Shown: positions 13,225 to 61,920 of the stretch, piece after piece
Numbering within the stretch: position 1 is the first letter of the stretch
Layout of the letters: every line of letters begins with the position of its first letter
Assembly (NCBI RefSeq): GCF_003340495.1
Contig: NZ_QASA01000001.1
Location: forward strand, 2,728,001 to 2,792,000
DNA length: 64,000 nt
DNA from: Adhaeribacter pallidiroseus
GTDB lineage: Bacteria > Bacteroidota > Bacteroidia > Cytophagales > Hymenobacteraceae
Reading direction: 5' to 3'
Made by a program: the position numbers and the translations under genes
The notes under the pieces: model-generated
Database searches by the model: none
Seen by the model: the letters and a program-made list of their open reading frames with translations, nothing else
Told to the model about the DNA's origin: nothing

Positions 13225-13828
13225 GCCATTCCATTTGTTTAAGGTGTATGAGGCCCCTTTGTTAAGCAAGGGCAACTTCTTTATTTTATCAATCTCTTTA
13301 CTTCTTACGAAGAGCAAAAGTTTTAATGGCGGCAAAATCCCATATAAGCGTTTGCGGTAGTTGTTCGTTATAGGGTTAGTGCTTGCTCTGTAAAAAATTA
13401 AATGATACCAAAGTAGTAGTGGTTGTTCTTTAGAGCCAGTTCCCGGCTCCATGCTCTGGTGCTATCTGCCTAAATACGCTTATTTTGCTGCGGAATTTAG
13501 ACAGCAGCTAAGCACAAAAAACAGCCGTTTGACTCAGAAGCACCTGCCCAGGTTCCAATACTACGCGACCGTATTCGGCAAATGGCATTGAGGAAAGAAC
13601 GGCTAGCCAGAACGGAAGAATGAAACGAAGTTTGCTGGCTCTGGTGGTAAACATGAGGTAACCAATCCAAGAGGTAGCGCTGCTGCCCGGAAGCGGGAAC
13701 CCAATCTAAAAAACCAAACTGATACCACTATCTCTAGGTACTAAGTAAGACCAGGCGTTCTGGTAGCACTATATACTCTAAGGAGTCGTTTTTTAAAATT
13801 TAAATTTAAACTGCTCACCCAACTCATT
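13225..13828. other. Intergenic between NDH-2 and phosphatase genes
   Basis: 604 bases without a supported gene. The part next to the NDH-2 start remains open in its frame back to 13452 but lacks family similarity, so it is probably leader. The remainder shows no hairpin or repeat that I can define. Confidence 0.45.
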
Positions 13829-14506
13829 CTAAAAGTCATCGCGGTTATCCACCATTATTACCTCTAAGGTATCTAGATTTAAAGCTACGAGTTTGCCTAA
13901 GCCCGGGGGCCAGGAATACACACAACCGCCATCAATATTAATCACTGACTCGGCAGGTGGGCCAATACTGGCCATAATTTCGGAAGCCATGGTGGGCGTA
14001 TGCCCGTGCACAATCCGCCGGCCTTGTGTAAATTTTTCTTTCACCTCAAAGTGCCGGATCCAAATCATTGCCTCGAAATCGGTAAACGGATTCGCCGCTT
14101 TAAAATTAAAACCGGCGTGTACCAGTAGGTAATCGGGCAACTCGTGGTAATAATCCAACTTAGCTATAAAATTTAGGTACTTTGCCGAAATATCCGCTAC
14201 CTGCGGCGCATTAAAACTTTGCAAGGTGGTTTGTCCGCCGTTGCGCAGCCAGGTTGTTAAATACTGCGGGTTTTCCGGGGCTTGCAGCAATAAGTTTTCA
14301 TGGTTGCCCATTAACGCCGTTATTTTAAAATTTTTGGCTTGCAATTCCATCATAAAATCCAGCACTCCCTTTGAATCCGGGCCACGATCAATGTAATCGC
14401 CCAGCAGGTAAAGCTGATCGGTAAGTTGCAGTTGCAAACGTTCTTCTACCAGAAACCGAAAAGTTTTAGCACAACCATGAATATCGGAAATAGCGTATCG
14501 ATTCAA
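13829..14506 (-). CDS. Serine/threonine-type metallophosphatase (PPP family)
   Basis: Protein of 225 residues with the full set of PPP metallophosphoesterase motifs in order: DIHGC (about residues 8-12), GDYIDRGPDS (about 46-55), GNHE (about 80-83), a single His in LVHAGF, and GHTPT with the second metal-ligand His. The set binds two metals and hydrolyses phosphate esters. Bacterial members act on phosphoproteins or on diadenosine tetraphosphate (ApaH-like). The short length and symmetrical motifs resemble bacterial PrpA/PrpE-type phosphatases. The substrate is not determined. The gene is separated from the aldo/keto reductase on the same strand by a repeat-rich spacer. Confidence 0.92.
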   Translation of the reverse strand: MNRYAISDIHGCAKTFRFLVEERLQLQLTDQLYLLGDYIDRGPDSKGVLDFMMELQAKNFKITALMGNHENLLLQAPENPQYLTTWLRNGGQTTLQSFNAPQVADISAKYLNFIAKLDYYHELPDYLLVHAGFNFKAANPFTDFEAMIWIRHFEVKEKFTQGRRIVHGHTPTMASEIMASIGPPAESVINIDGGCVYSWPPGLGKLVALNLDTLEVIMVDNRDDF

Positions 14507-44782: not shown

Positions 44783-45680
44783 GACTTCTTTCAAAAGTAA
44801 TTAGATATTAAGTAAATAGCAGAACTTTGCGGTATGGTGACAAAATACGAACAAATCCGCTTTTTAAGCGAAGCTCTTTTCCGGCGCTTAACAGGGGTGC
44901 ATAAAGCCACCTTTGAGCACATGAAAGCAGTTTTAAGCGAACAAATAGCCAAAAACAAGAAAGTTCTCGGTCGTCCTAGTCGCTTGTCGGAGGCCGATCA
45001 AGTATTGATGATGTTAGAATATAATCGGGAATACCGGACCTATTTTCACATCGCTCAGAGCTACCAAGTGAGTGAAGCCACGGCCTTCCGCTTGATTACA
45101 CGAGCGGAAAATCTTTTACTCCAATCCGGGGAATTTAGCTTACCTGGCAAAAAAGCCCTTCTCCAAAGTTCCATCAGTTACCAAGTAGTACTGGTAGATG
45201 CTACGGAGACAAGAATCGAACGTCCCCAAAAAAACAAAGACGCTACTACTCGGCTAAAAGAAACAACATCATCTGAAAACACAAATGATAGTGGATAAGA
45301 AGAGCGGAAAAATCATTTGTACGCATTTTGCCAAAGGAGCAGTGCATGATTTCCAACTTTTTAAATGCAGCCAGCTTAAACTCCCAACTCCTATCCTGCT
45401 ATTAGCGGATTCGGGTTATCAAGGAATCAAAAAGTTGATCCCGCAAGCCCATACCCCGAAGAAGGCCTCCAAACATTATCCTTTAACGCGGCAAGACCAG
45501 CAACAAAACCGAGCGTTGTCTTCCCAGCGAATCAAGATTGAAAACGTGTTTGGTTTTCTTAAACGATTCAAAATTTTTGCTACCAAGTATAGAAATCGTC
45601 GAAAGCGCTTTGGCTTACGCTTTAACCTCTTTGCTGCCATTGCTAATTACGACACTATCTAAGTACTTTTGAAAGAAGTC
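44783..45680. mobile_element. IS5-family-like insertion sequence, 898 bp
   Basis: Terminal inverted repeats of 25 bases: GACTTCTTTCAAAAGTAATT and on (44783-44807) and its reverse complement at 45656-45680, one mismatch. A TA dinucleotide lies directly outside both ends (44781-44782, 45681-45682), consistent with a 2-base target duplication. Contains one transposase gene, which is frame-disrupted; its stop codon lies inside the right repeat. Confidence 0.88.
44834..45662 (+). pseudogene. IS5-family transposase, broken by two frame changes
   Basis: The N-terminal part (44834 to about 45230) has a helix-turn-helix region (SYQVSEATAFRLITRAENLL) and the first catalytic Asp in LVDATETRIERP. The C-terminal part, in another frame to 45662, has the second Asp in LLLADSGYQGI and the Glu in RIKIENVFGFLKRF (DDE_Tnp_4 type). 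Between them the family sequence PQKKQRRYYSAKKKQHHLKTQ can be rebuilt if one A is added at the A-run near 45230 and one at the A-run near 45257. The first point is a canonical A AAA AAC slip site, so the first shift could be programmed. The second looks like plain loss. An intact enzyme is therefore not made from this copy without a second shift. Confidence 0.85.
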
Positions 45681-45802
45681 TAATAAATCAGTACAGCTTT
45701 AGTATACGATTGCCCGAATTTAAAAGTCACGGATGTAAATCTGCGCCATAGTTACAGTGCTTCCTAGTTTTTACAGTTATCCATCTACTAACAACTAACA
45801 AC

Positions 45803-46906
45803 GACTTTGTTGCAACGGGACTCTTTTCTACTAGCTCGCTTATAGCGAGCAGTAGCTAAGCTACTAGGTAGGCCAGAGGCATTCCCTGGTGGCGATAGAT
45901 GTTTAAGATTTTACATTTTAGTTCTACTTCTGTTTTCTGATTTTCTATTTTCCGGGTCCTCATCTGGGCGGAGAAAGTAGTTTTGTAGCGAAACATAGCT
46001 ACCTCATTTAAACTTCGGCGATGATAGCCAGCTTGGATTTTCCAGGCTTTTCGATCGTGCTCTTGCCTATATTCGACTGCCTCATTGCGCTGCCGTAGGT
46101 ATTCTGGTACCGGCTTCTTCTGGGTACCTTTATGTACCACTGCATCTTTGGACGGGGGTATAATTTGCTTAATGCCCCCTGCTAGGAGCTCTCGCAACTT
46201 AAAGTCATCATAAGCGCCATCCCCTATAAAACTACTCAGCTGAGCAGTCTTGCCTTGCAGCAACTTGCCCGCGACCACCGCATCATCTTCCCCATTCGTA
46301 GTCAACGCCACAAAAACGATCTCTTGGGTATCAACAGCAATACCGATGTGCAATTTGCGCCAAGTTCTATGCTTGGAAGCCCCGTGTTTTCTTACTTTCC
46401 ACTCGCCTTCCCCGTATACTTTTAAACCGGTAGAATCGAGCGCAATAGCTAGCTTTCGGTTGCGGGCTAATGCTTTACTTACTTCTACTGGCAGGCAGCT
46501 TTGTCGGCGGCAAAGAGTAGTATAATCTGGTACGGCATAATCTTTATAGCCTAACATCGCCAGCAAACTAGAAACAAAGCCGGTCGTCTGCCGCAGCGGC
46601 TGATGATACACCTGGCCTAACAACAAACAGCATTGGATTACACAATCAGCATATAAGCATTCCCCTACTACTTTCTGGCTCGGATCAATCTCGCGCCACG
46701 CTCTTAACACGGAATCTTCCAGCCATAAAGTCAAACTACCTCTTTGAACTAAACTGCTAGTATAGGCTTTCCAATTTTTAACTTTATACCTATCTTTAGC
46801 CGGGATTGTAGGCGATGGTAACATCTCTTCTTTATGGTTTCGTCACTACAAAGATAGACTGCAATCCCTTTTTTACCTATCCCATTCTCAACGTTGCAAC
46901 AAAGTC
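45803..46906. mobile_element. IS5-family (IS903-like) insertion sequence, 1104 bp
   Basis: Inverted repeats GACTTTGTTGCAACG (45803-45817) and CGTTGCAACAAAGTC (46892-46906), resembling the IS903 end GGCTTTGTTG. A 9-base direct repeat ACTAACAAC flanks both ends (45794-45802 and 46907-46915), which is the duplication size of the IS903 group. The repeat lies in low-complexity DNA, so chance similarity must be allowed for, but the size fits. Confidence 0.9.
45856..46824 (-). CDS. IS903-type transposase
   Basis: Protein of 322 residues, full length for an IS5-family DDE transposase of the IS903 group. The first Asp is in IALDSTGLKVYGEGEWKVRKHG, the second in FIGDGAYDDFKLRELL, and the Glu in GYHRRSLNEVAMFRYKTTF. 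All three are present and the frame is uninterrupted, so the element may be active. A single copy is visible in the window. It reads opposite to the upstream NtrC-like gene and fills most of the element between its inverted repeats. Confidence 0.95.
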   Translation of the reverse strand: MLPSPTIPAKDRYKVKNWKAYTSSLVQRGSLTLWLEDSVLRAWREIDPSQKVVGECLYADCVIQCCLLLGQVYHQPLRQTTGFVSSLLAMLGYKDYAVPDYTTLCRRQSCLPVEVSKALARNRKLAIALDSTGLKVYGEGEWKVRKHGASKHRTWRKLHIGIAVDTQEIVFVALTTNGEDDAVVAGKLLQGKTAQLSSFIGDGAYDDFKLRELLAGGIKQIIPPSKDAVVHKGTQKKPVPEYLRQRNEAVEYRQEHDRKAWKIQAGYHRRSLNEVAMFRYKTTFSAQMRTRKIENQKTEVELKCKILNIYRHQGMPLAYLVA

Positions 46907-49306: not shown

Positions 49307-50425
49307 ATGAAGAAGAAAGTATTAATTACGGGCGGTGCTGGTTTTATCGGGTCGCACCTGGCCGATGAATTACTAAATTACGGTTACGATGTACGCGCCC
49401 TGGATAACCTCTCGGAACAGGTTCACGGGAAAGAATGCCAGCGTCCGGATTATTTAAACCCGCACGTAGAACTTATCGTGGGCGACGTACGGGATAAAAA
49501 AGTAGTATTAGAAGCGTTAGAAGGAGTAAGTGCGGTGTTCCATTTTGCCGCCATGGTGGGCGTAGGCCAAAGCATGTACGAAATCCGGGAATATACCGAT
49601 GTTAATAATACTGGTACGGCGGTTTTATTGGAATGCCTGTCGCAAAAACCCGTGGAAAAGTTGGTGGTGGCCTCCAGCATGAGTATTTACGGCGAAGGCT
49701 TGTATAAAAATACGCAAGGCGAAGTAGTAATTGGCACCGAGCGGCCTTTAGAGCAACTAAAAGCGGGTAAATGGGAGGTATTGGATGAAAACGGCCAAGA
49801 GCTCACTCCTATTCCAACCTCTGAATCCAAAACACCTTGTTTATCATCGGTTTACGCTTTATCTAAGTTCGACCAGGAACGTATGAGTTTGCTGGTGGGC
49901 CGGGCATATAATATACCCACGGTAGCCATGCGCTTTTTTAACGTATACGGCACCCGGCAGGCTTTATCTAATCCGTATACCGGGGTATTAGCCATTTTTG
50001 CTTCTCGGTTCCTGAACGATAACCCCCCCATGATTTTTGAAGACGGTCAACAACAACGCGATTTCGTGCACGTACGCGATGTGGCCTTAGCATGCCGGTT
50101 AGCTTTAGAAGCTCCGGAAGCCAATGGCCAGGTATTTAACGTGGGCAGCGGAAATAATTATACTATTTCGGAGATAGCCGAACGGTTAGCGCAGGTACTA
50201 GGCAAAGATCAATTAAAAGCTCAGATTACGGGTAAATACCGGGTCGGTGATATTCGTCATTGTTATTCAGATATCTCTTTGGCACAGGAAGTACTAGGAT
50301 TCCATCCGCAGGTAGATTTTAACAGTGGCCTACTAGAATTAGCGGAGTGGCTGGAAGGTCAGATTGCCTACGATCGGGTAAATGAAGCCAGCGCAGAATT
50401 AGCTGCTCGCGGCTTAACGGTATAA
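49307..50425 (+). CDS. NAD-dependent sugar epimerase/dehydratase (extended SDR)
   Basis: Protein of 372 residues. Extended short-chain dehydrogenase with NAD motif LITGGAGFIGSHLADELL at the N-terminus, FHFAAMVGVGQSMYE, active-site SSVYALSKFDQE (Tyr183, Lys187) and NVGSGNNYTISEIAERL plus VGDIRHCYSDISLA typical of UDP- or dTDP-sugar epimerases. An insertion of about 50 residues between the SSMSIYGEG segment and the Tyr is unlike GalE and is seen in dTDP-rhamnose-4-epimerase-like and related enzymes. First gene of the 49.3-61.9 kb cluster, likely making or converting the sugar donor. The exact substrate is not determined. Confidence 0.9.
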   Translation: MKKKVLITGGAGFIGSHLADELLNYGYDVRALDNLSEQVHGKECQRPDYLNPHVELIVGDVRDKKVVLEALEGVSAVFHFAAMVGVGQSMYEIREYTDVNNTGTAVLLECLSQKPVEKLVVASSMSIYGEGLYKNTQGEVVIGTERPLEQLKAGKWEVLDENGQELTPIPTSESKTPCLSSVYALSKFDQERMSLLVGRAYNIPTVAMRFFNVYGTRQALSNPYTGVLAIFASRFLNDNPPMIFEDGQQQRDFVHVRDVALACRLALEAPEANGQVFNVGSGNNYTISEIAERLAQVLGKDQLKAQITGKYRVGDIRHCYSDISLAQEVLGFHPQVDFNSGLLELAEWLEGQIAYDRVNEASAELAARGLTV

Positions 50426-50467: not shown

Positions 50468-52534
50468 ATGTTAATGGATATACAATCTAATAATAATTTG
50501 GGAAATAAGAACCAGTCAGTGGTGGGGATGGTAGAATGGTTTCGGCCAGGAGAACACGAACGGGTAGAACAGGCTATGACGGCCTTAAAAGAACTTAAAA
50601 TTACCGAATTGCGTACCGGAGTTTCCTGGGCCGAATACATTACGCCGGCCGGAAAAAACTGGTACAATTGGCTTATCCCGCGTTTAGCCGAGGAAGTAAA
50701 CGTATTACCTTGTTTTCAGCAAACCCCTCCGACCTTGGGAGTGGTGCCGCGTACTTCTTCCCCCCTTAACAATCCGCCGGATTTTGCTGATTTTATAAAA
50801 GTTATTCTCACCGATTTAGGTCAGCATTTCGAATGGGTTGAATTATGGAATGCGCCAAATAATAAATCAGGCTACGATTACACCCGCGATAACAACTGGC
50901 ACCGGTTTACCGAAATGATTACGGCCGGCGCAAAACAGGCCCACGAACAAGGTAAAAAAGTAGTTCTGGGAGGTATGAACCCCGTAGACCCAAACTGGCT
51001 GCAATTACTGTTCGACCGGGGAGTAATGACCTATATAGATGCCGTCGGCATTCAGGGCTTTCCGGAAGTATCTGATTCTGCCTGGGAAGGTTGGGAAGAA
51101 ACTATTGCTCCCATAAACATAATTTTAAAAAAACAGCATTCCCCGGCGCAAATCTGGATTACCGCCGCCGGTTTTTCTACGTGGCAGCACGACGAATACC
51201 AACAGCTCCAGGAATTCCGGAATGTTTTGCAAGCGGATGTTTCCAGGGTTTACTGGAATAGCTTGCTGGATCAAAACCCAGACGCCGAACAAAATAATAC
51301 GTACCTGGTAGATGAGCGGCAATTAAATTATGGTTTAATACGGCCGGATAATAGCCCCAAATTGTTATACCGGTTACTAGCCGAAAACGGGTTGGATGGC
51401 TTACAAAAACTAACCTGCATTAAAAGAGAAATCAATTTTAACTCCACCGATAAATACGCAGTAATTACCGGCGGAGCTGGTTTTGTGGGTACCAACTTAG
51501 CTAAACGTTTATTGCAGGAGGGTAAACACGTTTTAATTCTGGATAACCTGTCACGGCCCGGGGTGGAGCGTAACTTGCAATGGCTGCACGATAATTACGA
51601 CCAACGCTTGCACATTTACGTAGGCGATGTCCGAAATTTAGCCACGGTTAAAAAAGTAATGCAAGGTGCCGAACAGGTATTTCATTTTGCTGCCCAGGTA
51701 GCCGTTACCACTTCGCTCGATTTCCCGATTAACGATTTTGAAATTAATGCCCGCGGCATCATTAACGTTTTAGAAGCCATCCGGGCCCAGGATAATCCGC
51801 CCCCGTTGGTGTTTACTTCTACCAACAAAGTATATGGTGGCCTGGAAGATCTACTATTTATAGCCGATGGTTCGCGTTATAATCCTTCTGATAAAACGAT
51901 ATTAAAGCACGGCATTGGCGAAAACCGGTCTTTAGATTTCCATAGCCCGTACGGCTGCTCCAAAGGTGCCGCCGACCAGTACGTAATTGATTACGCCCGT
52001 ACCTATGGTATTCCGGCCGTTGTTTTTAGGATGAGCTGCATCTACGGCCCGCACCAGTACGGCAACGAAGACCAAGGCTGGGTAGCACATTTTGCCATCC
52101 GGGCCATCGAAAACAAAGCCATCAGTATTTACGGCGACGGCAAACAAGTACGCGACGTGTTGTTTGTTGAAGATTTAGTAGATGCTTTTCTTCTGGCTCA
52201 GGAACACATGACGGAAATTTCCGGACAAGCCTTTAACATTGGTGGCGGCCCCGAAAATACCACCAGCTTATTAGAACTGCTCGAATTAATCGGCGAATTT
52301 CAAGGTCAGAAAATTCCGTTGCAGTTTGGTAACTGGCGGCCCGGCGATCAGCATTATTACGTTTCGGATATCCGAAAATTTAAAAAAGCGACGGGTTGGT
52401 ATCCTAAAAACTCGGTACCGGAAGGTGTGGCCAAGTTGTACCGCTGGTTATGCGAAACCCGGGGTATTGCGGTACCCGCTGCGTTTGCTCAGCCGGAAAA
52501 AAATAAAGTTACAAAAGTTGCTGTTGCTTCATGA
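50468..52534 (+). CDS. Pseudo-glycosidase (GH-A fold) fused to sugar epimerase
   Basis: Protein of 688 residues with two parts. Residues ~1-320 resemble a clan GH-A beta-xylosidase-like barrel (GVSWAEYITPAG, WVELWNAPNN, VDAVGIQGFP-like and IWITAAGFSTWQHDE). Where family members have catalytic Glu (usual WNEP and WITE), this protein has Ala129 and Ala233, so the glycosidase is predicted inactive and perhaps sugar-binding. Residues ~330-670 are an extended SDR epimerase with AVITGGAGFVGTNLA, SPYGCSKGAADQY (Tyr ~495, Lys ~499) and FNIGGGPENTTSLLEL, similar to CDP-paratose or dTDP-sugar epimerases. No signal peptide. 42 bases after the preceding gene and ATGA-overlapping the next, so it is co-transcribed. 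Confidence 0.88.
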   Translation: MLMDIQSNNNLGNKNQSVVGMVEWFRPGEHERVEQAMTALKELKITELRTGVSWAEYITPAGKNWYNWLIPRLAEEVNVLPCFQQTPPTLGVVPRTSSPLNNPPDFADFIKVILTDLGQHFEWVELWNAPNNKSGYDYTRDNNWHRFTEMITAGAKQAHEQGKKVVLGGMNPVDPNWLQLLFDRGVMTYIDAVGIQGFPEVSDSAWEGWEETIAPINIILKKQHSPAQIWITAAGFSTWQHDEYQQLQEFRNVLQADVSRVYWNSLLDQNPDAEQNNTYLVDERQLNYGLIRPDNSPKLLYRLLAENGLDGLQKLTCIKREINFNSTDKYAVITGGAGFVGTNLAKRLLQEGKHVLILDNLSRPGVERNLQWLHDNYDQRLHIYVGDVRNLATVKKVMQGAEQVFHFAAQVAVTTSLDFPINDFEINARGIINVLEAIRAQDNPPPLVFTSTNKVYGGLEDLLFIADGSRYNPSDKTILKHGIGENRSLDFHSPYGCSKGAADQYVIDYARTYGIPAVVFRMSCIYGPHQYGNEDQGWVAHFAIRAIENKAISIYGDGKQVRDVLFVEDLVDAFLLAQEHMTEISGQAFNIGGGPENTTSLLELLELIGEFQGQKIPLQFGNWRPGDQHYYVSDIRKFKKATGWYPKNSVPEGVAKLYRWLCETRGIAVPAAFAQPEKNKVTKVAVAS

Positions 52535-53538
52535 ATCCAGAATTAATTGCCTTACCTGAATTACGAAAAGAAAAAATAACGATGATGCGGGCAGCCGTTA
52601 TCCAAAGCCCGCAAAATTTAAAAATAAAGCAAGTTGATCTGCCGGAACCTGGCCCTAACCAGGTTCGGATTAAGATGGAAGGCTGCGGGCTTTGCGCTTC
52701 TAATATTCCCGTTTGGCAAGGCCGGGAATGGTTTACCTATCCCATTGCGGCCGGCAATCCCGGCCACGAAGGCTGGGGCTTGGTTGATGCGGTGGGCGAA
52801 AATGTAACCCAGGTAAAGGTAGGCGACCGGGTGGCGGCTATCACCTACCATGCGTACGCCGAGTTTGATTTAGCCGAAGCGGATTCTTTGGTAAAATTAC
52901 CCGTTACCTTTAATAACCTTCCGTTTCCGGGGGAACCCTTAGGTTGTGCCATAAATATCTTTAAACGTGCCGATATTCAGCCTGGGCAAACGGTAGCCAT
53001 TTTGGGCATTGGTTTTTTAGGAGCTTTGTTAATTCAGTTAGTGAAACACGCCGGAGCCCGGGTAATTGCGCTTTCACAACGCGATTATTCTTTGAAAGTG
53101 GCCGAGGAATGCGGTGCCGATGCGGTTATTAAACTAGATGACCATTACCAAATAATCGAAAAAGTTAAAAATTTAACCAATAGTGCTTTTTGCCCGCGGG
53201 TAATTGAATGCACCGGCAAAGAATGGCCTTTGAACCTGGCGGGTGAACTTACGGCCGAAAGAGGAAAACTGATTATTGCGGGCTACCACCAAGATGGCAT
53301 GCGGTCGGTGAATGTGCAGTTGTGGAATTGGCGCGGTTTAGATGTAATTAATGCCCACGAACGCGATCCGAAGATTTACCTGCAAGGCATGCTGGAAGCC
53401 GTAGAAGCGGTACTAAGCGGCCGGATCAATCCGCAACCTTTGTACACGCACACGTATCCTTTTGAAGAAATAGCCGAAGCTTTTCAAGTTCTGGAGAGCC
53501 GCCCCGATGGATTTATGAAAGCACTTATTCAGTTCTAG
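52531..53538 (+). CDS. Zinc-dependent alcohol dehydrogenase (MDR)
   Basis: Protein of about 335 residues from the overlapping ATGA start; an internal ATG at 52582 (MMRAAVIQSP) gives the more usual N-terminus. Medium-chain dehydrogenase/reductase with catalytic Zn ligands Cys in EGCGLCASN and His in NPGHEGWG, and Rossmann motif VAILGIGFLGALLIQL. The four-Cys structural zinc loop is absent. It oxidises a secondary or sugar alcohol, or reduces a keto-sugar, with NAD(P). In this cluster it is probably a sugar-modifying step. Coupled to the fusion gene by a four-base overlap. Confidence 0.9.
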   Translation: MNPELIALPELRKEKITMMRAAVIQSPQNLKIKQVDLPEPGPNQVRIKMEGCGLCASNIPVWQGREWFTYPIAAGNPGHEGWGLVDAVGENVTQVKVGDRVAAITYHAYAEFDLAEADSLVKLPVTFNNLPFPGEPLGCAINIFKRADIQPGQTVAILGIGFLGALLIQLVKHAGARVIALSQRDYSLKVAEECGADAVIKLDDHYQIIEKVKNLTNSAFCPRVIECTGKEWPLNLAGELTAERGKLIIAGYHQDGMRSVNVQLWNWRGLDVINAHERDPKIYLQGMLEAVEAVLSGRINPQPLYTHTYPFEEIAEAFQVLESRPDGFMKALIQF

Positions 53539-53742
53539 ATTTTAGGCGCTAGATACGCGACGTTTAAGGAAAAAATTTAAATTTTTCAGCTTACAAATGC
53601 CTTTTTACCTGTAGTTTTTAGCGACCTGCTGTAGTGGAAATATTGGGGAGCCGTCATTTACTACTGCTAACTGTTTTCAGGACCGAAGTCTTTTTGCTCC
53701 GGTGTGATAAGGCGAAGCTTTTGTAAGGAATTATACGAAAAC

Positions 53743-54783
53743 ATGCAACCAGATTCTATTAGAGATAAAAGCTTAAAACCAGATGAACCGGTTACTAATC
53801 AACTTCCAAAATTAGGTTTTCTGGGAGTAGGTTGGATTGGCCGGAACCGCCTGGAAGCAATAGCGAAACACCAGGCGGGCGAAGTAGTTTACTTGTCTGA
53901 TCCGGCGGCTAATAATGTGGCCGATGCTTTAAAAATGGCTACCCAAGCCCAAACAGCAGCTTCTCTGCCCGAAATGTTAGCCTCCGGAGTAGACGGGATT
54001 GTAATTGCTACACCCAGCGCTTTACACGCAGAACAAGCTATAGCGGCTTTAAACGCCGGCAAAGCCGTTTTCTGCCAAAAACCACTCGGCCGGAATCAAA
54101 CCGAAACCAAAGCAGTAGTGGAAGCTGCCCGCTCGGCGGATAAACTACTGGGAGTCGATTTATCTTACCGGTATATTCTGGCCATGCAGGAAGTGTATCG
54201 GGTTATTCAATCCGGCGAGCTAGGTACTATTTACGGCGTAGAATTAATATTTCACAATGCCTACGGCCCGGATAAACCTTGGTTTTACGACCCTGCCTTA
54301 TCCGGCGGAGGTTGCGTGATTGATCTGGGCGTGCACCTCGTGGATTTAGCTTTATGGTGTTTACAATTTCCAGAAGTAGAAACGGTTACCAGTAGTTTGT
54401 TTAGTAAAGGCCAGCCCTTAACCGCTACCCCAAACCAGGTAGAAGACTACGCTACCGCCAGCATTCAATTACAAACCGGTACGCACCTACAGCTTACCTG
54501 TTCCTGGAATTTACCCGCTGGTCAGGAGGCCATTATCAGTGCTGTATTTTACGGAACCAACGGCGGTGTAGCCTTTAAAAATACGAGCGGTTCTTTTTAT
54601 AATTTTACAGCCGAACGGTATTACGGCACCCGTACCGAAACACTTTTTTCTTCTCCAGACGATTGGTCGGGCCGGGCGGGAGTAGTTTGGGCGAACCGGG
54701 TAGCTGCCGGCGAAAAATTTAATCCGGAAGCCGAGGAATATGTAAAAGTAGCGGCGGCGCTGGATAAAATTTACAAAAGATAA
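53743..54783 (+). CDS. Gfo/Idh/MocA family oxidoreductase
   Basis: About 346 residues from ATG 53743 (MQPDSIRDKS); a GTG at 53704 would add 13 residues. NAD(P)-binding motif LGFLGVGWIGRNRLEAIA, then IVIATPSALHAEQAIAALNAGKAVFCQKPLG with the EKP-type Lys (here QKP), and GGCVIDLGVHLVDLALWCL with the catalytic His. C-terminal beta-sheet domain. Enzymes of this family oxidise or epimerise sugars or inositols. The QKP for EKP change affects the conserved Glu next to the catalytic Lys and is notable. Next gene starts 3 bases after the stop. Confidence 0.9.
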   Translation: MQPDSIRDKSLKPDEPVTNQLPKLGFLGVGWIGRNRLEAIAKHQAGEVVYLSDPAANNVADALKMATQAQTAASLPEMLASGVDGIVIATPSALHAEQAIAALNAGKAVFCQKPLGRNQTETKAVVEAARSADKLLGVDLSYRYILAMQEVYRVIQSGELGTIYGVELIFHNAYGPDKPWFYDPALSGGGCVIDLGVHLVDLALWCLQFPEVETVTSSLFSKGQPLTATPNQVEDYATASIQLQTGTHLQLTCSWNLPAGQEAIISAVFYGTNGGVAFKNTSGSFYNFTAERYYGTRTETLFSSPDDWSGRAGVVWANRVAAGEKFNPEAEEYVKVAAALDKIYKR

Positions 54784-54786
54784 TTC

Positions 54787-55890
54787 ATGACGGAAGCCAG
54801 CAAACCGCTTAAAATTCTGCTAACTGCCGATACTTTGGGGGGAGTCTGGACGTACGCCATTGATCTCATTAAAGCACTGGCACCCTACGGCACACAAGTG
54901 GCACTGGCAACCATGGGGGCATTATTAACACCGCTGCAACACCAACAAGTAAAAGCCCTTCCTCACGTAAAGCTCTACGAAAGTAATTACAAACTCGAGT
55001 GGATGGAAAGTCCTTGGGAAGAAGTAGATGCGGCTGGCAATTGGCTGCTGCAAGTAAACCAAGATTTCGCCCCCGATCTAATTCATTTAAACAACCTGGT
55101 ACACGGGAACCTGGCCTGGGGAAAACCGGTAGTGCTGGTAGTGCATTCTTGTGTGCAATCGTGGTGGCAGGGCGTTAAAAAAGAAGCCGCCCCCAACAAT
55201 TGGCAAGAATACCGAAACCGGGTAACCCAAAGTTTAAGAGCCGCCCAGGTAGTAGTGGCTCCTACTCTGGCCATGCTGGAAGAAGCCGAAACCTTGTACG
55301 GTCCTTTTTACAATCACTTGGTTATTCATAATGGCCGCGATTTAAGTTCGTTCCATTATGCCTCGAAAGAACCCTTTATCTTTAGCATGGGCCGGTTATG
55401 GGACGAGGCCAAAAATGTACAACTACTCGCCGAAGTTGCCGCCGATTTAAGCTGGCCGGTATTAATTGCCGGTAATGCCCAGCACCCGGTTACCGCCGAA
55501 ATTTTAAATTTTAAAAATGTTCAGTTTCTGGGGCATCTTGATCCTTTAGAAATTTCAAATTATTTGAGCCGGGCTTCCATTTTTGCCCTACCGGTCAAGT
55601 ACGAGCCTTTTGGCTTGTCGGCTTTGGAAGCTGGTCTATCGGGTTGTGCTTTAGTCCTAGGCAGTATCCCCAGTCAAAAAGAAATCTGGCAACATACCGC
55701 CACTTACGTGAATCCAACGGATGCCGAACAATTAAAAACTACCCTAACGAAACTAATCAACGATGAGTTTATCCGAAATATCTTTAGCTACCGGGCATTA
55801 AACGTAGCGCAGCAATACAGCGCCGAACAAATGGCCTTGGAGTACGCGGACTTGTATCAGCAACTATTACCGGATTTTAATCTTATTTAG
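54787..55890 (+). CDS. GT4 glycosyltransferase
   Basis: Protein of 367 residues with GT-B fold. N-terminal acceptor domain begins LKILLTADTLGGVWTYAIDLIKAL with the glycine-rich GG motif. The donor domain contains FSMGRLWDEAKNVQLLAEVA and the retaining-GT E-x7-E motif EPFGLSALEAG. It transfers a sugar from a nucleotide sugar with retention of configuration. It is 3 bases after the oxidoreductase gene, so in the same operon. No membrane segment. Sugar and acceptor unknown. Confidence 0.92.
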   Translation: MTEASKPLKILLTADTLGGVWTYAIDLIKALAPYGTQVALATMGALLTPLQHQQVKALPHVKLYESNYKLEWMESPWEEVDAAGNWLLQVNQDFAPDLIHLNNLVHGNLAWGKPVVLVVHSCVQSWWQGVKKEAAPNNWQEYRNRVTQSLRAAQVVVAPTLAMLEEAETLYGPFYNHLVIHNGRDLSSFHYASKEPFIFSMGRLWDEAKNVQLLAEVAADLSWPVLIAGNAQHPVTAEILNFKNVQFLGHLDPLEISNYLSRASIFALPVKYEPFGLSALEAGLSGCALVLGSIPSQKEIWQHTATYVNPTDAEQLKTTLTKLINDEFIRNIFSYRALNVAQQYSAEQMALEYADLYQQLLPDFNLI

Positions 55891-55909
55891 CGCCTTAATT
55901 AACCTAATA

Positions 55910-57049
55910 ATGAAAATAGTTCTTTTTTATCATTCGCTTCTCTCCGACTGGAACCACGGCAATGCGCATTTTTTAAGGGGCATTGTGCAGGAACTGAAAG
56001 TAAGAAATCATGAAGTACATGTTTTTGAACCCGAAAACGCCTGGAGTTTACAAAACTTGATTAGTGAATACGGACCGGAAAAGGTAAAAGAGTTACAACA
56101 ATACTATCCAGGGCTGCAAACAAACTTTTATAACCTAAGCTCACTAAATCTGGATACTGTTCTGCAGGGCGCTGATCTGGTTTTAGTGCACGAATGGAAC
56201 GATCATGAATTAGTAAAACGCCTGGGCGAACATCGCTTACAAAATAACTACAAACTGCTTTTCCACGATACGCATCACCGCGCCGTAACCGAAAAAAGCA
56301 GCATGGCCACTTATGATTTAGCGCACTACGATGGCGTATTAGCCTTTGGGGAAGTGATTAAAAATATCTACCTGCAGGAAAAATGGACCCAAAAAGCCTG
56401 GACCTGGCACGAAGCCGCCGATGATTCGGTATTTTACCCGCGTACCAAAACCGAAATTGCCGGCGACTTGGTGTGGATCGGTAATTGGGGCGACGAGGAA
56501 CGGACCGCGGAACTGCACGAATTTTTAATAAATCCGGTAAAAGAACTAGGTTTAAAAGCTAAAATTTACGGCGTCCGATACCCGGAGCACGCTTTAAAAT
56601 CTTTGGCGGACGCTGGTATTGAATACGGCGGTTGGTTGCCCAATTACAAAGCCCCGGAAGAATTTGCTAAATACAAGGTTACCGTACACGTGCCGCGCCG
56701 GCCTTACGTGGTAGCCTTACCCGGTATACCTACCATTCGGCCTTTTGAAGCGCTCAGTTGCGGCATTCCTTTAATTACCGCCCCCTGGGAAGATGCCGAA
56801 AATTTATTTACGCCGGGTCAGGATTTTCTGGTTGCGAAAAACGGTGCCGAAATGAAGATGCATTTACAAACAGTACTTAGTAACCAAAGCAAAGTAGATG
56901 AATTAGCTGCCCATGGTTTAAAAACCATCAATCAACGGCATACCTGCGCCCACCGGGTTACGGAGTTAGAAAATATCTGCGGGGAGTTGGGCATTAATCC
57001 GGCAAAAATTTACAGGAACAAAAAAGAACAAAACTTACATGCAAAATAA
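55910..57049 (+). CDS. CgeB-like glycosyltransferase 1
   Basis: Protein of 379 residues, CgeB/Glyco_trans_1_2-like family (GT-B). Typical features: N-terminal KIVLFYHSLLSDWNHGNAHFLRGIVQEL, a central WTWHEAADDSVFYPR segment, and the C-terminal IPTIRPFEALSCGIPLITAPWEDAENLFTPGQDFLVAKN donor-binding region with HRVTELENIC at the end. First of three paralogues in a row. Overlaps the next gene by 11 bases. CgeB-type enzymes glycosylate spore-coat or other glycans; the target here is unknown. Confidence 0.88.
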   Translation: MKIVLFYHSLLSDWNHGNAHFLRGIVQELKVRNHEVHVFEPENAWSLQNLISEYGPEKVKELQQYYPGLQTNFYNLSSLNLDTVLQGADLVLVHEWNDHELVKRLGEHRLQNNYKLLFHDTHHRAVTEKSSMATYDLAHYDGVLAFGEVIKNIYLQEKWTQKAWTWHEAADDSVFYPRTKTEIAGDLVWIGNWGDEERTAELHEFLINPVKELGLKAKIYGVRYPEHALKSLADAGIEYGGWLPNYKAPEEFAKYKVTVHVPRRPYVVALPGIPTIRPFEALSCGIPLITAPWEDAENLFTPGQDFLVAKNGAEMKMHLQTVLSNQSKVDELAAHGLKTINQRHTCAHRVTELENICGELGINPAKIYRNKKEQNLHAK

Positions 57050-58148
57050 AAAAAATTTAAAAATAGCGTTTTTTGGATCGAGCTTAGTATCGGCTTATTG
57101 GAACGGAGCGGCCACGTATTACCGTGGTATTGTCCGGGCGTTACACCAGCGCGGCCACCAGGTTACTTTTTATGAGCCAGATGCTTACCAACGCCAGGAA
57201 AACCGCGACATGGCCGATCCCGACTGGGCCAAAGTAGTCGTTTACCCTGCTGCCGAAGAAGCCGTTCATCAAGTACTTTTGGATGCCACCCACGCGGATA
57301 TTGTGGTAAAAGCCAGTGGCGTTGGGGTTTTTGATGAACTATTGGAAGCCGAAGTTTTGAAACTGCAAACGCCCGACCGCACCATTATTTTCTGGGACGT
57401 AGATGCGCCCGCTACCCTGGATCGCGTCCAACACAATCCAGAAGATCCTTTCCGGGCGCACATTCCGCAGTACGATATGATTTTAACCTACGGCGGCGGC
57501 GAACCGGTGATCCAAGCTTACGCGGCATTGGGGGCAAAGCAGTGCGTACCCATTTATAATGCACTGGATACGGCCACGCATTTCCCGGTGGAGCCCAACC
57601 CCAAGTTTGCCTGCGATTTAGCTTTCCTGGGTAATCGTTTGCCCGACCGGGAAGCCCGGGTGGAACAATTCTTTTTAAACGTAGCCGCTAAATGTCCGGA
57701 ACAAAGCTTTATGATTGGCGGCAGTGGTTGGGGCGATAAACCGATGAGTTCGAATGTAAAATACATTGGCCACGTTTTTACCCAGGACCATAACGCTTTT
57801 AACTGCACGCCCAAAGCGGTTTTAAATATTAGCCGCGAAAGTATGGCTCGTTACGGCTTCTCTCCCGCTACCCGGGTTTTTGAAGCGGCCGGAGCCGCGG
57901 CTTGCATTATTACGGATTATTGGGAAGGCATTGATTTTTTCTTTGAACCAGATACCGAAATATTAGTAGCCCAGGATGGGGACGAAGTGGCGCAAATAAT
58001 GGCCGGCTTAACTCCCGAAAAAGCTCAAGTCATTGGCGAAGCTGCCTTTAAAAAAGTATTAGCGGCGCACACCTACGACCATCGGGCCGACCAGTTAGAA
58101 CAGTTGCTTTTCAGCAAAATTTTAAAAAACGCCGGGGAGTTGGTATGA
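57039..58148 (+). CDS. CgeB-like glycosyltransferase 2
   Basis: Protein of 369 residues of the same family as its neighbours: LKIAFFGSSLVSAYWNGAATYYRGIVRALHQRGH, then the SWGDKPMSSNVKYIGHVF-like middle (as GSGWGDKPMSSNVKYIG), and GFSPATRVFEAAGAAACIITDYWEGIDFFFEP near the C-terminus. It starts inside the end of the previous gene (11-base overlap) and its stop overlaps the next start by four bases, so all three are translated from one mRNA. Possibly adds a successive sugar. The DVDAPATLDRV segment is shared with the third copy. Confidence 0.88.
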   Translation: MQNKKNLKIAFFGSSLVSAYWNGAATYYRGIVRALHQRGHQVTFYEPDAYQRQENRDMADPDWAKVVVYPAAEEAVHQVLLDATHADIVVKASGVGVFDELLEAEVLKLQTPDRTIIFWDVDAPATLDRVQHNPEDPFRAHIPQYDMILTYGGGEPVIQAYAALGAKQCVPIYNALDTATHFPVEPNPKFACDLAFLGNRLPDREARVEQFFLNVAAKCPEQSFMIGGSGWGDKPMSSNVKYIGHVFTQDHNAFNCTPKAVLNISRESMARYGFSPATRVFEAAGAAACIITDYWEGIDFFFEPDTEILVAQDGDEVAQIMAGLTPEKAQVIGEAAFKKVLAAHTYDHRADQLEQLLFSKILKNAGELV

Positions 58149-59227
58149 AGCGGGAATCGTTGAACATCGTTATTCTGGGTTTATCTATTACGTCATCGTG
58201 GGGCAACGGTCACGCCACCACTTTTCGGGGATTGGTGCGAGAATTAGCTAACCGCGGACATCAGGTATTGTTTTTAGAACGGGATGTGCCGTGGTACGCC
58301 ACCAGTCGCGATTTACCTAATCCGGGCTACTGCGATACGCAATTGTATACTTCTTTATCGGATTTACAAACCCAATTTACGGAGCAGGTGCGCGAGGCTG
58401 ACTTTGTAATGGTGGGCTCTTACGTTCCGGAAGGCGTAGCGGTAGGACAATGGGTAATTAAAACCGCTCAGGGCATAAAAGCTTTTTACGACATTGATAC
58501 ACCCGTAACTTTGGCTAAACTGGAGCGGGAAGATTACGAATACCTGCATCCCAATCTGATTCCGCAATACGATTTATACCTGTCGTTTACGGGTGGACCA
58601 ACCTTAGACTTACTCGAACAAAAATACGGATCACCGAAAGCCCGGCCGTTGTATTGTTCTTTCGATCCGGAACTGTATTATCCGGAGCAACAAGAATTGA
58701 AATGGGATTTAGGCTATTTAGGAACTTACAGCGACGATCGCCAACCACCTCTCGAAAAACTCATGCTGGATGCGGCCCGCCAATGGCCGCAGGGTAAATT
58801 TGTAGTAGCCGGTCCGCAATATCCCGAATCTATTCAATGGCCCAACAACACACAGTATATTCATCATTTACCACCGGCCGAGCACCGGCAATTTTATAAC
58901 AGCCAGCGGTTTACACAAAATATCACCCGCTTGGATATGATCAAAGCAGGTTATTCGCCTAGCGTTCGCTTGTTCGAAGCCGCCGCTTGCGGTACGCCTA
59001 TTATCAGCGATTTTTGGGATGGTCTGGATTCTATTTTTACATTCGACTCGGAGATTTTAGTGGCTTACTCGGCTACCGATACGTTGCGGTTCTTGCAAGA
59101 AATTTCCGAAACAGAAAGACAAGCCATCAGCGAAAAAGCGCGGCAAAAAGTTTTGGTGCAACACACCGCCGCTCACCGGGCGTTGGAAGTAGAGCAATAC
59201 ATCCGCGAGTATAAAATTTTAGTTTAA
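58145..59227 (+). CDS. CgeB-like glycosyltransferase 3
   Basis: Protein of 360 residues, close to copy 2 (DIDTPVTLAKLERED, TGGPTLDLLEQKYG, GYSPSVRLFEAAACGTPIISDFWDGLDSIFTFDSEILVA). The N-terminus LNIVILGLSITSSWGNGHATTFRGLVREL is the family pattern. Overlaps the previous gene by four bases (ATGA). The tandem paralogues suggest sequential glycosylations or diversification by duplication. No membrane segment or signal. The acceptor is not identifiable. Confidence 0.88.
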   Translation: MKRESLNIVILGLSITSSWGNGHATTFRGLVRELANRGHQVLFLERDVPWYATSRDLPNPGYCDTQLYTSLSDLQTQFTEQVREADFVMVGSYVPEGVAVGQWVIKTAQGIKAFYDIDTPVTLAKLEREDYEYLHPNLIPQYDLYLSFTGGPTLDLLEQKYGSPKARPLYCSFDPELYYPEQQELKWDLGYLGTYSDDRQPPLEKLMLDAARQWPQGKFVVAGPQYPESIQWPNNTQYIHHLPPAEHRQFYNSQRFTQNITRLDMIKAGYSPSVRLFEAAACGTPIISDFWDGLDSIFTFDSEILVAYSATDTLRFLQEISETERQAISEKARQKVLVQHTAAHRALEVEQYIREYKILV

Positions 59228-59492: not shown

Positions 59493-60311
59493 ATGAGCAC
59501 CTTACAGCAGGAAATTGAACAACTAAGACCCTGGTTTCATAATATCCATTTACCCGATGGAACGCAAACGGCTCCCCATCATTCCCTAGGCGATTTTCCG
59601 GCTTTTAAGTGGCGCGATATAGCTCCGTCTATTCCCGAAGATTTGAGCGGTTGGAAGGTGCTGGATGTAGGTTGTAACGCTGGTTATTATACTATTGAAT
59701 TAGCAAAGCGCGGTGCCCAGGTATTGGCCATTGATATTGATCCGCATTATTTAAGACAAGCCGCTTGGGTGGCCCAACAATTTAATCTGAGTCAGCAAAT
59801 AGAATTCCGGCAAATGCAGGTGTATGATGTGGCTCAGTTAAATCAAAGTTTTGATTTAATCTGGTACATGGGCGTTTTGTACCATTTACGTTATCCTTTG
59901 CTTTCTCTGGATATTCTTTCCCAAAAATTAAAAAAGTTAATGATTTTTCAAACCTTAACCATGCCAGGCGAAGAAGTAGCCGAAGTACCTTTTGATTTAG
60001 ATTTTAACGACCGCGAAAAAATGCAGCAAGATGGCTGGCCCAAAATGGCTTTCATCGAAAACCGGCTGGCGGGCGATGTTACGAATTGGTGGGCGCCTAA
60101 CCACACCGGAATAGAAGCCATGCTGCGCTCTTGTGGTTTAAAAGTAACCCAACGACCAGCCCACGAAATTTACCTCTGCGAACCGGACACATCTAACCCT
60201 AAAAATGTTCATTCCTGGAACAGCTCCGAGTATTTATCCGCCACGGGGCAAAACTGGTCAGAAGCGGTAAAAGTAAAAATAACGCATAAAAACCGGACCC
60301 TGACCTCTTAA
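59493..60311 (+). CDS. Class I SAM methyltransferase (TIGR04290-like)
   Basis: Protein of 272 residues with a Rossmann methylase fold: motif I VLDVGCNAGYYTIELAKRGAQVLAIDID (about residues 52-79), then FDLIWYMGVLYHLRYPLLSL (motif IV-like). The N-terminus LRPWFHNIHLPDGTQTAPHHSLGDFPAFKW is the signature of the TIGR04290/Rta_06860 methyltransferases, which occur in glycosyltransferase clusters. Probably methylates a hydroxyl of the sugar or aglycone (inference). It is 265 bases after the last CgeB-like gene, so it may have its own promoter though on the same strand. Confidence 0.85.
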   Translation: MSTLQQEIEQLRPWFHNIHLPDGTQTAPHHSLGDFPAFKWRDIAPSIPEDLSGWKVLDVGCNAGYYTIELAKRGAQVLAIDIDPHYLRQAAWVAQQFNLSQQIEFRQMQVYDVAQLNQSFDLIWYMGVLYHLRYPLLSLDILSQKLKKLMIFQTLTMPGEEVAEVPFDLDFNDREKMQQDGWPKMAFIENRLAGDVTNWWAPNHTGIEAMLRSCGLKVTQRPAHEIYLCEPDTSNPKNVHSWNSSEYLSATGQNWSEAVKVKITHKNRTLTS

Positions 60312-60474
60312 AAGTAAAATCCCTTTTTTTAAATTTTCAACCACTTTCCGGTTACCGAAACGGCATTTTGCCTTTCTCCGACCAGTGTATAGCGCCATAA
60401 TATTTTCTAAAAAGATCAGGTAACCAGTTACCAGTTCCTGGCAATCAGATAAGCTGGTGGACTCTATTTTTACC

Positions 60475-61920
60475 ATGTTAGATTATCAAGTAAAACGTAG
60501 CACCACAGAAAATCTGGCGACGCTACCCTGGATTCAAGTGGCTTCCGAGGCACCCTATTTTATTACGGAAGAAGGCGAAAGCTGGACCCCGATCGGTCAG
60601 AACGATGCAGTTACCTGGCCGGAGTTTGCGGGTTTGTTCCGGCGGAAAGATTATACTGGGGTGGAAAAACATCTGGCTTACCTCGTAGAAAATGGAGTAA
60701 CCTGCCTCCGGTTTATGCTGGAATATGCGCAAACCGAAAACCGGTACATCGAAAAACCAGCCGGTAAATTTCAGCCCAACATGATTAAACTATGGGACGA
60801 TTTATTTGCGCTCTGCGAGCAGTATGGCCTTCGTATATTGCTAACTCCTTATGATACTTTCTGGATGTGGATCCGGTGGAAACATCATCCTTATAACCGG
60901 GTAAACGGCGGACCCTGTGCCAAACGTTCCCGGTGGCTGTTGTGCCCGGATACATTACAAGCTATTAAAAACCGCTTAACCTTTGCCACCGAAAGGTGGG
61001 GCCACAGCGGTGCCCTTTTCGCCTGGGATTTGTGGAACGAAATTCATCCGGCGCACGCCGAAAATAACCCCGAAGTTTTTCATCAGTTTGTGGGCGAAAT
61101 AAGCAGCCACTTGCGCGAGGTAGAAATGCGATTGTACGGCCGTACCCACCTGCAAACGGTATCTTTGTTTGGTCCGGTTTTATACGAGCACCCGGTGGTA
61201 GCCGATGTTATATTTCGCCACCCGGAACTCGATTTTGCTACTACGCATTTTTACGATGCCAAAACTATTAATCACCCGAAAGACACGGTAAATCCGGCCA
61301 TTTGCACGGGTACTTTAGTGCGGGAAGCCTTGGAACATTTGCAACCGCCCAAGCCTTTTTTCGATAGTGAGCACGGTCCTATTCACAGTTTTAAAGATTT
61401 GCGTAAAACCTTACCCGATGAATTTGACGATGAATACTTCCGGCATATTCAATGGGCGCACCTAGCCTCGGGAGCCGCGGGCGGTGGCATGCGTTGGCCC
61501 AACCGGCACCCCCATGTACTCACGCCCGGTATGCGATTGGCTCAAGCCAGTTTAGCTAATTTTGTTCAAATCTTAGATTGGTCTCAATTTCAACGCATAA
61601 ACCTGAACCAGGAATTAAAAATATCTTCCCCGGCTTTCGCGGGCTTTTGTTGTGCCGACGATAAACAAGCCATTGTTTGGTTATTGCGCCAGGATAAACG
61701 CGATAAAAAGAAGTTAGTAGACAAACTGGCTCCGGCTATAACCCCAACCATTATAATACCGGGCTTACAAGCGGGCCCATATCAGGTGTATTTCTGGAAA
61801 ACGCTGGCAGGAGAATTATTAACTCAAAAAACGTTGCAATCCTCTTGCAATAATCAACTGCAGATAGCAGTACCGCCTATCGTGACGGATATAGCTATAG
61901 CTATTAGGAAGATAACTTAA
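60475..61920 (+). CDS. Glycoside hydrolase, clan GH-A (cellulase/mannanase-like), cytoplasmic
   Basis: About 481 residues from ATG 60475 (MLDYQVKRST); a GTG at 60457 adds six residues. A TIM-barrel glycosidase with both catalytic Glu present: acid/base in FAWDLWNEIHP and nucleophile in FFDSEHGPIHS. Other barrel strands: TCLRFMLEY, LRILLTPYDTFW, TTHFYDA. The C-terminal ~85 residues form a beta domain. It lacks a signal peptide, so it acts inside the cell, unusual for a polysaccharide hydrolase and consistent with trimming or hydrolysing an intracellular product of the cluster. The GH family number is uncertain (GH5 or GH39-like). Confidence 0.85.
   Translation: MLDYQVKRSTTENLATLPWIQVASEAPYFITEEGESWTPIGQNDAVTWPEFAGLFRRKDYTGVEKHLAYLVENGVTCLRFMLEYAQTENRYIEKPAGKFQPNMIKLWDDLFALCEQYGLRILLTPYDTFWMWIRWKHHPYNRVNGGPCAKRSRWLLCPDTLQAIKNRLTFATERWGHSGALFAWDLWNEIHPAHAENNPEVFHQFVGEISSHLREVEMRLYGRTHLQTVSLFGPVLYEHPVVADVIFRHPELDFATTHFYDAKTINHPKDTVNPAICTGTLVREALEHLQPPKPFFDSEHGPIHSFKDLRKTLPDEFDDEYFRHIQWAHLASGAAGGGMRWPNRHPHVLTPGMRLAQASLANFVQILDWSQFQRINLNQELKISSPAFAGFCCADDKQAIVWLLRQDKRDKKKLVDKLAPAITPTIIIPGLQAGPYQVYFWKTLAGELLTQKTLQSSCNNQLQIAVPPIVTDIAIAIRKIT

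Follow-up and report, generated by a model that had tools for sequence, protein, structure and literature searches.

A glycosidase-like barrel without its catalytic glutamates, fused to a predicted epimerase, and its circularly permuted paralogue in Adhaeribacter pallidiroseus

The fusion gene and its cluster

The window analyzed here is a stretch of 64,000 nucleotides from Adhaeribacter pallidiroseus (contig NZ_QASA01000001.1, positions 2,728,001 to 2,792,000). It carries on its forward strand a cluster of genes for glycan or glycoside assembly, one of which encodes a two-domain protein. The features are as follows, in positions of the window.

49307-50425, + strand: SDR1, an NAD-dependent epimerase/dehydratase, conserved in the cluster
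50468-52534, + strand: fusion ORF of 688 amino acids, N-terminal GH-A-like barrel and C-terminal SDR domain resembling CDP-tyvelose 2-epimerase (translation, AlphaFold2 model, sequence matches)
50513-51403, + strand: (beta/alpha)8 barrel domain, amino acids 16-312, predicted from its sequence to be catalytically dead (eight strands in the AlphaFold2 model; family alignment)
50852-50854, + strand: Ala129, codon GCG, in place of the acid/base Glu (codon read directly; alignment)
51053-51055, + strand: Gln196, codon CAG, in place of a conserved His (codon and alignment)
51164-51166, + strand: Ala233, codon GCC, in place of the nucleophile Glu (codon read directly; alignment)
51449-52531, + strand: SDR domain, amino acids 328-688, CDP-tyvelose 2-epimerase-like, catalytic residues intact (sequence and fold match)
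52531-53538, + strand: zinc-type dehydrogenase
53704-54783, + strand: Gfo/Idh/MocA oxidoreductase
54787-59227, + strand: four glycosyltransferases (54787-55890, 55910-57049, 57039-58148, 58145-59227)
59493-60311, + strand: TIGR04290 family methyltransferase (NCBIfam 347.6 bits, cut-off 300)

The fusion ORF has no internal stop. Its SDR half matched CDP-tyvelose 2-epimerases by sequence (9rl0, 2e-86; 1orr, 6e-85), and in the predicted model its fold matched 1orr_A with a Z score of 46.4 (rmsd 1.5, 329 residues aligned, 43% identity). The residues T452-N453-K454, Y495, K499, Q536 and W538 are those of the known enzyme, Q536 and W538 corresponding to the Gln and Trp of its loop, and the Thr/Tyr/Lys triad and the TNK residues have been described for the 2-epimerase active site (PMC13098431, PMC7851689). 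The window protein differs from that enzyme in carrying the N-terminal barrel and in one further residue: Trp210, which contacts CDP in the T. atlanticus enzyme (PMC7851689), is replaced by His541 (52088-52090), and the nucleotide may therefore differ. His occupies this position in 85 rows of a 94-row family alignment. The SDR half is predicted to be an NDP-sugar C-2 epimerase and is still conserved.

The AlphaFold2 model of the whole protein, built on a 63-row alignment, reached a mean pLDDT of 89.0 and a pTM of 0.88. Its barrel, mostly above a pLDDT of 90, is predicted to have the eight strands of clan GH-A in order (residues 18-23, 47-53, 78-84, 123-126, 164-170, 192-197, 228-234 and 260-264), after which the SDR domain follows. 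In this model Ala129 directly follows strand 4 and Ala233 closes strand 7, places which we take to be the acid/base and nucleophile positions of the clan. Direct reading of the codons bore out the initial annotation, which had reported Ala at both positions (GCG within WNAPN, GCC within WITAAG). At a third site, the end of strand 6, the window has Gln196, where the other 91 of 92 rows have His. No acid appears to have been gained at the two catalytic sites, as judged from the alignment and the strand positions in the model; the only barrel acids peculiar to the window (found in fewer than 20% of Glu/Glu relatives) are E75, E160 and E274, none of which lies in a strand, and E274 sits in a low-confidence loop after strand 8. 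We infer that the window barrel probably has no hydrolase activity.

The barrel gave no Pfam match at E 0.1 and no NCBIfam match among the best 25 of 126 rows. When 16 barrels of the family were compared with Pfam, the best match was a weak one to GH1, seen in 2 of the 16 members at E 0.022 and short of the cut-off, and comparison of the barrel with solved structures by sequence gave only weak matches to beta-glucosidases (best E 0.54 and 0.004). In the fold searches with the 688-residue model the best 50 matches were in each case SDR structures only, so that the fold does not name a GH family for the barrel. What it shares with clan GH-A retaining glycosidases (GH1, GH39, GH51, GH53, GH128 and others) is thus, beyond those weak matches, the eight-stranded barrel, the location of its two catalytic columns where strands 4 and 7 end, and the Asn before the acid/base position; it differs in having Ala for both Glu and in falling below the cut-off of every Pfam family.

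Finding a glycosidase gene within a glycan cluster is unremarkable by itself. One exopolysaccharide cluster contains PslG, an intracellular glycosyl hydrolase, although PslG is active (PMC9075953). A search of one open-access library yielded no publication on TIGR04290, on a CDP-paratose 2-epimerase together with a glycosyl hydrolase, or on such a cluster. Adjoining the methyltransferase gene is a 487-amino-acid ORF (60457-61920, + strand) in which WNE and SEH stretches look GH-A-like by eye; it had no Pfam match at E 0.1. Upstream of the cluster, at 44834-46824, there are ORFs on opposite strands that look transposase-like by eye.

Catalytic residues and divergence across the family

Relatives were found in all 8 genomes of the genus (one, G034, without the fused gene), in 49 of 150 genomes of the family and in 9 of 241 genomes of the order. 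The 49 comprise 46 genomes with the fused form, two (G034 and G052) with only the permuted form described below, and one (G128) with a fragment. Contigs of GTDB species gave 346 relatives, and the best 80, which we retained, come from Bacteroidota, Geomonas/Citrifermentans, a cyanobacterium, a planctomycete, a gemmatimonad, proteobacteria, Ignavibacteria and others. The barrel-epimerase fusion is widespread, and its barrel was reached by no Pfam family here.

We aligned 94 sequences that are distinct in their last 250 residues (32 loci identical over that length were dropped, as were, at an earlier step, duplicates by the last 300 residues); in three of these the frame holds no SDR, and the sequence of the nearest relative, G003, was entered as its barrel half. 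Both catalytic Glu are present in 87 of these sequences, while five have Glu/Ala, one, from Rufibacter hautae, Gly/Ala, and the window alone Ala/Ala; the acid/base Glu is thus found in 92 of the 94 and the nucleophile Glu in 87. Ala is therefore not the rule at both sites among fusion homologues, a point that the initial annotation had left to be checked, and the double Ala is a lineage-specific trait rather than a property of the fusion family. Where the nucleophile was changed, the replacement was Ala in all seven cases (the window, G024, G009, Hymenobacter cavernae, Rufibacter hautae, and two Glu/Ala MAGs, L191 from Ignavibacteria and L194 from Bacteroidota), encoded by GCG, GCC or GCT.

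Three Adhaeribacter sequences (L011, L012 and L013), and no others of the 94, have Asp for the Asn before the acid/base Glu (WDEPN). The fusion gene of G003 lies in two overlapping frames (G003:C3, ~5557078; L045 and L096), with the break in a G-rich run where the SDR begins; this may be a genuine split or an error of sequencing. In G128 only a 99-residue barrel stretch with two stops was matched (G128:C157:27138-27434), possibly a pseudogene remnant.

The surrounding barrel strands had also been described as well conserved, and this did not hold: of the ten protein segments compared in the cluster, the barrel changes fastest, albeit still under purifying selection. Between the window and G003 the fused barrels are 68 to 69% identical, compared to 79 to 96% for the nine other segments (SDR1, 96%; fused SDR, 92 to 93%; dehydrogenase, 87%; Gfo-type oxidoreductase, 79%; the four glycosyltransferases, 83, 88, 93 and 92%; methyltransferase, 90%). 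Of the columns conserved to at least 95% across the Glu/Glu sequences of the 94-row alignment, the window differs at 11; every one of these falls in the barrel, the SDR showing no such change. With the topology fixed to that of the SDR, the root-to-tip path of its barrel was 0.75, the longest of 46 family members, against 0.277 for its SDR. The G003 barrel, which keeps both Glu, had nevertheless changed nearly as fast (0.736).

Barrel dN/dS was 0.10 to 0.18 in the five window pairs with estimable dS, a rough figure since dS (1.7 to 2.4) was near saturation, and SDR dN/dS in window pairs was 0.05 to 0.07. The barrel value exceeds that of the SDR and is still low, so the constraint on the barrel is apparently weaker, not absent. 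Of the earlier proposal that selection keeps the fold but not hydrolysis, the loss of both Glu thus stands, and retention of the fold is probable, given the open frame, the in-frame fusion and the low dN/dS, whereas the strand conservation offered in its support does not hold. In the two Glu/Ala MAGs, the end branches of the barrel were shorter than those of the SDR (0.152 versus 0.231 in L191, 0.189 versus 0.287 in L194), so that these barrels look constrained rather than decaying.

A circularly permuted paralogue

The genome of the window encodes a second, free-standing barrel of 294 amino acids (G000:C1:4137220-4138101; L009) with both Glu intact. Relative to the fused barrel its order is permuted, strands 4 to 8 coming first and strands 1 to 3 last. 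All 22 permuted proteins, which came from the family and order searches, matched a profile of 16 fused barrels at ~106-289 and then at 2-101; 0 of 22 shuffles matched the profile. Residues ~2-190 of these proteins correspond to model positions 106-289 (i-E 1e-33 to 1e-39) and residues 195-292 to positions 2-101 (i-E 2e-18 to 2e-22). In a later check all 20 loci examined had the permuted order, six of these being repeats of proteins already counted; the 20 include the copies from the L191 and L194 MAGs and nine plasmid loci. Both Glu are kept in all 22 proteins, in all 11 non-plasmid loci of the later check, both Glu/Ala MAGs among them, and in all 9 plasmid loci.

The permuted protein was modeled poorly by AlphaFold2 (pLDDT 51.3, 3-row alignment), and the permutation therefore rests on sequence with weak fold support: the first half of this low-confidence model matched GH51, GH53 and GH128 chains with middling Z scores of at most 7.0. 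Its best Pfam match was to Glyco_hydro_cc, at 15.6 bits against a cut-off of 21. The strand order of the fused barrel is the canonical one, and the permuted form would therefore be the derived one. Circular permutation in TIM-barrel glycoside hydrolases reportedly has a literature, including work on GH13; we found no publication on circularly permuted clan GH-A barrels in one open-access library. In a draw of 296 genomes from the phylum, only that of the window matched the permuted barrel over its whole length, and ten others matched it in part (best E 1.8e-11; frames of 482 to 807 amino acids), one of which, L201, reads as GH39/GH42 by Pfam. Ten pattern-matching stretches on viral contigs encoded no relative of the permuted barrel.

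On plasmids, the two barrel queries found 147 records with 149 places and 146 records with 147 places, so that a replicon with the barrel almost always has a single one, fused or permuted. Eleven plasmid stretches were examined; L244 and L250 among these lacked annotation. The permuted barrel was present in nine, all alphaproteobacterial, and in seven of these the epimerase was present but unfused (six species, with two stretches from Sinorhizobium meliloti); the stretches L240 and L250 showed no epimerase of this type. The remaining two plasmids, from Xanthomonas sacchari and Rhizobium bangladeshense, carry the fused form, with no permuted barrel within the stretch. As replicons are not whole genomes, this alternation is a pattern and not proof of exclusion. 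In the X. sacchari stretch (L241, ~12000-14120) the match to the fused relative is split in two, and its in-frame barrel part begins only at residue 87; the frame may change inside the barrel.

Where annotated on plasmids, the permuted protein is mostly called 'beta-xylosidase'. Free-standing proteins of that name beside TIGR04290 methyltransferases (in Azospirillum, Bradyrhizobium, Roseomonas and others) have the same barrel by profile and the same neighborhood as the fusion. They differ from the window barrel in being circularly permuted and unfused, in keeping both Glu in all loci checked, and in changing far more slowly in the pair compared, the permuted paralogues of the window genome and G003 being 98.6% identical.

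Loss of the nucleophile coincided with presence of the permuted copy. Among 92 genomes with the fused gene and known status, the nucleophile was lost in 7 of the 25 with the copy and in none of the 67 without it; conversely, the copy was present in all 7 genomes with the loss and in 18 of the 85 that retain the nucleophile (Fisher P = 5.5e-5, relatedness ignored). These counts leave out three loci with no fused frame (L184, L186 and L196), three duplicates (L155, L189 and L173), the G128 fragment, the permuted-only G034 and G052, G356 (matched only in part, by two frames of 225 and 236 amino acids), and 30 of the 80 best loci, namely L198 and 29 from Hymenobacteraceae, seemingly mostly genomes already in the family search. 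On the SDR tree the fewest changes were five for nucleophile loss and nine for the copy; since loss and regain were not told apart, we give the losses as four to five. Two of the five changes separate the window from G009 and G024, because G003 keeps its Glu. Sign tests on independent pairs, 4 and 5 of them on starred branches, did not reach significance, and no pairing ran in the opposite direction. The copy is not sufficient for the loss, given the 18 genomes that combine it with a Glu/Glu fused barrel.

The relative rate of the barrel differed as well. Across 46 family members the median barrel/SDR root-to-tip ratio was 2.23 with the copy (n = 19) and 1.39 without it (n = 27; Mann-Whitney P = 2e-4, relatedness ignored). 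The barrel path was only slightly longer with the copy (median of 0.529 versus 0.464, P = 0.046) and the SDR path shorter (0.230 versus 0.321, P = 0.005), so part of the contrast stems from the SDR. Counting against the link are genomes with low ratios despite the copy, namely the Pontibacter-like G104, G008 and G086 (1.29 to 1.51), G007 (1.14) and G065 (1.18), and also G006 (1.5). The L191 and L194 barrels, slower than their SDRs, and the fast G003 barrel with both Glu count against it too.

Possible routes to a barrel predicted to lack catalysis

We consider it fairly probable that the glycosidase domain encoded in the window has been naturally inactivated and persists, still folded, as part of the epimerase protein, with catalysis supplied in trans by the permuted paralogue. 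In most relatives the barrel is a Glu/Glu enzyme fused to the C-2 epimerase. In this Adhaeribacter lineage it would have been inactivated, losing both Glu and the conserved His while changing quickly, and have been retained mainly as a folded appendage of the conserved epimerase. The hydrolytic or transglycosylating step would come from the permuted Glu/Glu barrel at G000:C1:4137220-4138101, which may carry out the same reaction as the Glu/Glu fused barrel and whose presence may have permitted the loss of catalysis in the window barrel.

The initial annotation had instead proposed that the dead barrel has a kept job, binding a glycan or sugar nucleotide and presenting it to, or regulating, the fused epimerase. 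Pseudoglycosidases are already known: Klotho and heparanase-2 of animals reportedly have a GH fold without hydrolysis, as is predicted for the window barrel, and, unlike the latter, neither is known to be fused to a sugar-nucleotide enzyme. The open frame, the in-frame fusion and a pairwise barrel dN/dS well below 1 speak for such a role, and the Glu/Ala barrels of L191 and L194, evolving no faster than their SDR domains, indicate that a barrel can stay constrained without its nucleophile. Yet the window barrel has diverged further than any other of the ten cluster segments or of the 46 family barrels, and its loss of other conserved residues, His196 included, would be unexpected for a preserved sugar site; moreover, the epimerase occurs without a fused barrel in seven of nine plasmid loci, so the fusion is not needed for the epimerase in general. 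We regard a retained binding or regulatory role as possible but rather unlikely, and the permuted Glu/Glu paralogue would be a simpler account of a loss of hydrolysis. Plain decay, in which the barrel is on its way to loss and has only to leave the epimerase fold undisturbed, seems less likely still. It would fit the longest barrel branch, the several conserved positions lost and the fragment with two stops in G128, but an unconstrained domain should drift towards a dN/dS of 1 and gather stops or indels, whereas the frame here is intact and dN/dS, though rough, remains at a fraction of that value. That the catalytic codons reflect an error of assembly or sequencing was rejected as scarcely credible: three separate conserved sites are changed, with clean codons, the nucleophile Ala recurs in six other genomes, and the genome is assembled in 3 contigs at 99.97% completeness; nothing was found in its favor.

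Living relatives offer the states of inactivation side by side (Glu/Glu, Glu/Ala, Gly/Ala and Ala/Ala), while the permuted paralogue alongside them remains intact and has hardly changed in the closest pair. Together they provide a natural experiment on whether a fused enzyme can be replaced by its permuted relative and thereby freed to lose catalysis.

It is also conceivable, but very improbable in our judgment, that a Glu/Ala barrel fused to an enzyme making an alpha-linked NDP-sugar acts as a natural glycosynthase-like transferase, of which the window would be a later, dead stage. A nucleophile replaced by Ala with the acid/base Glu kept is the constellation of laboratory glycosynthases, and five of the seven variants have it. 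Bearing on this reading, all seven nucleophile losses, in four to five events, were to Ala, and the L191 and L194 barrels look constrained.
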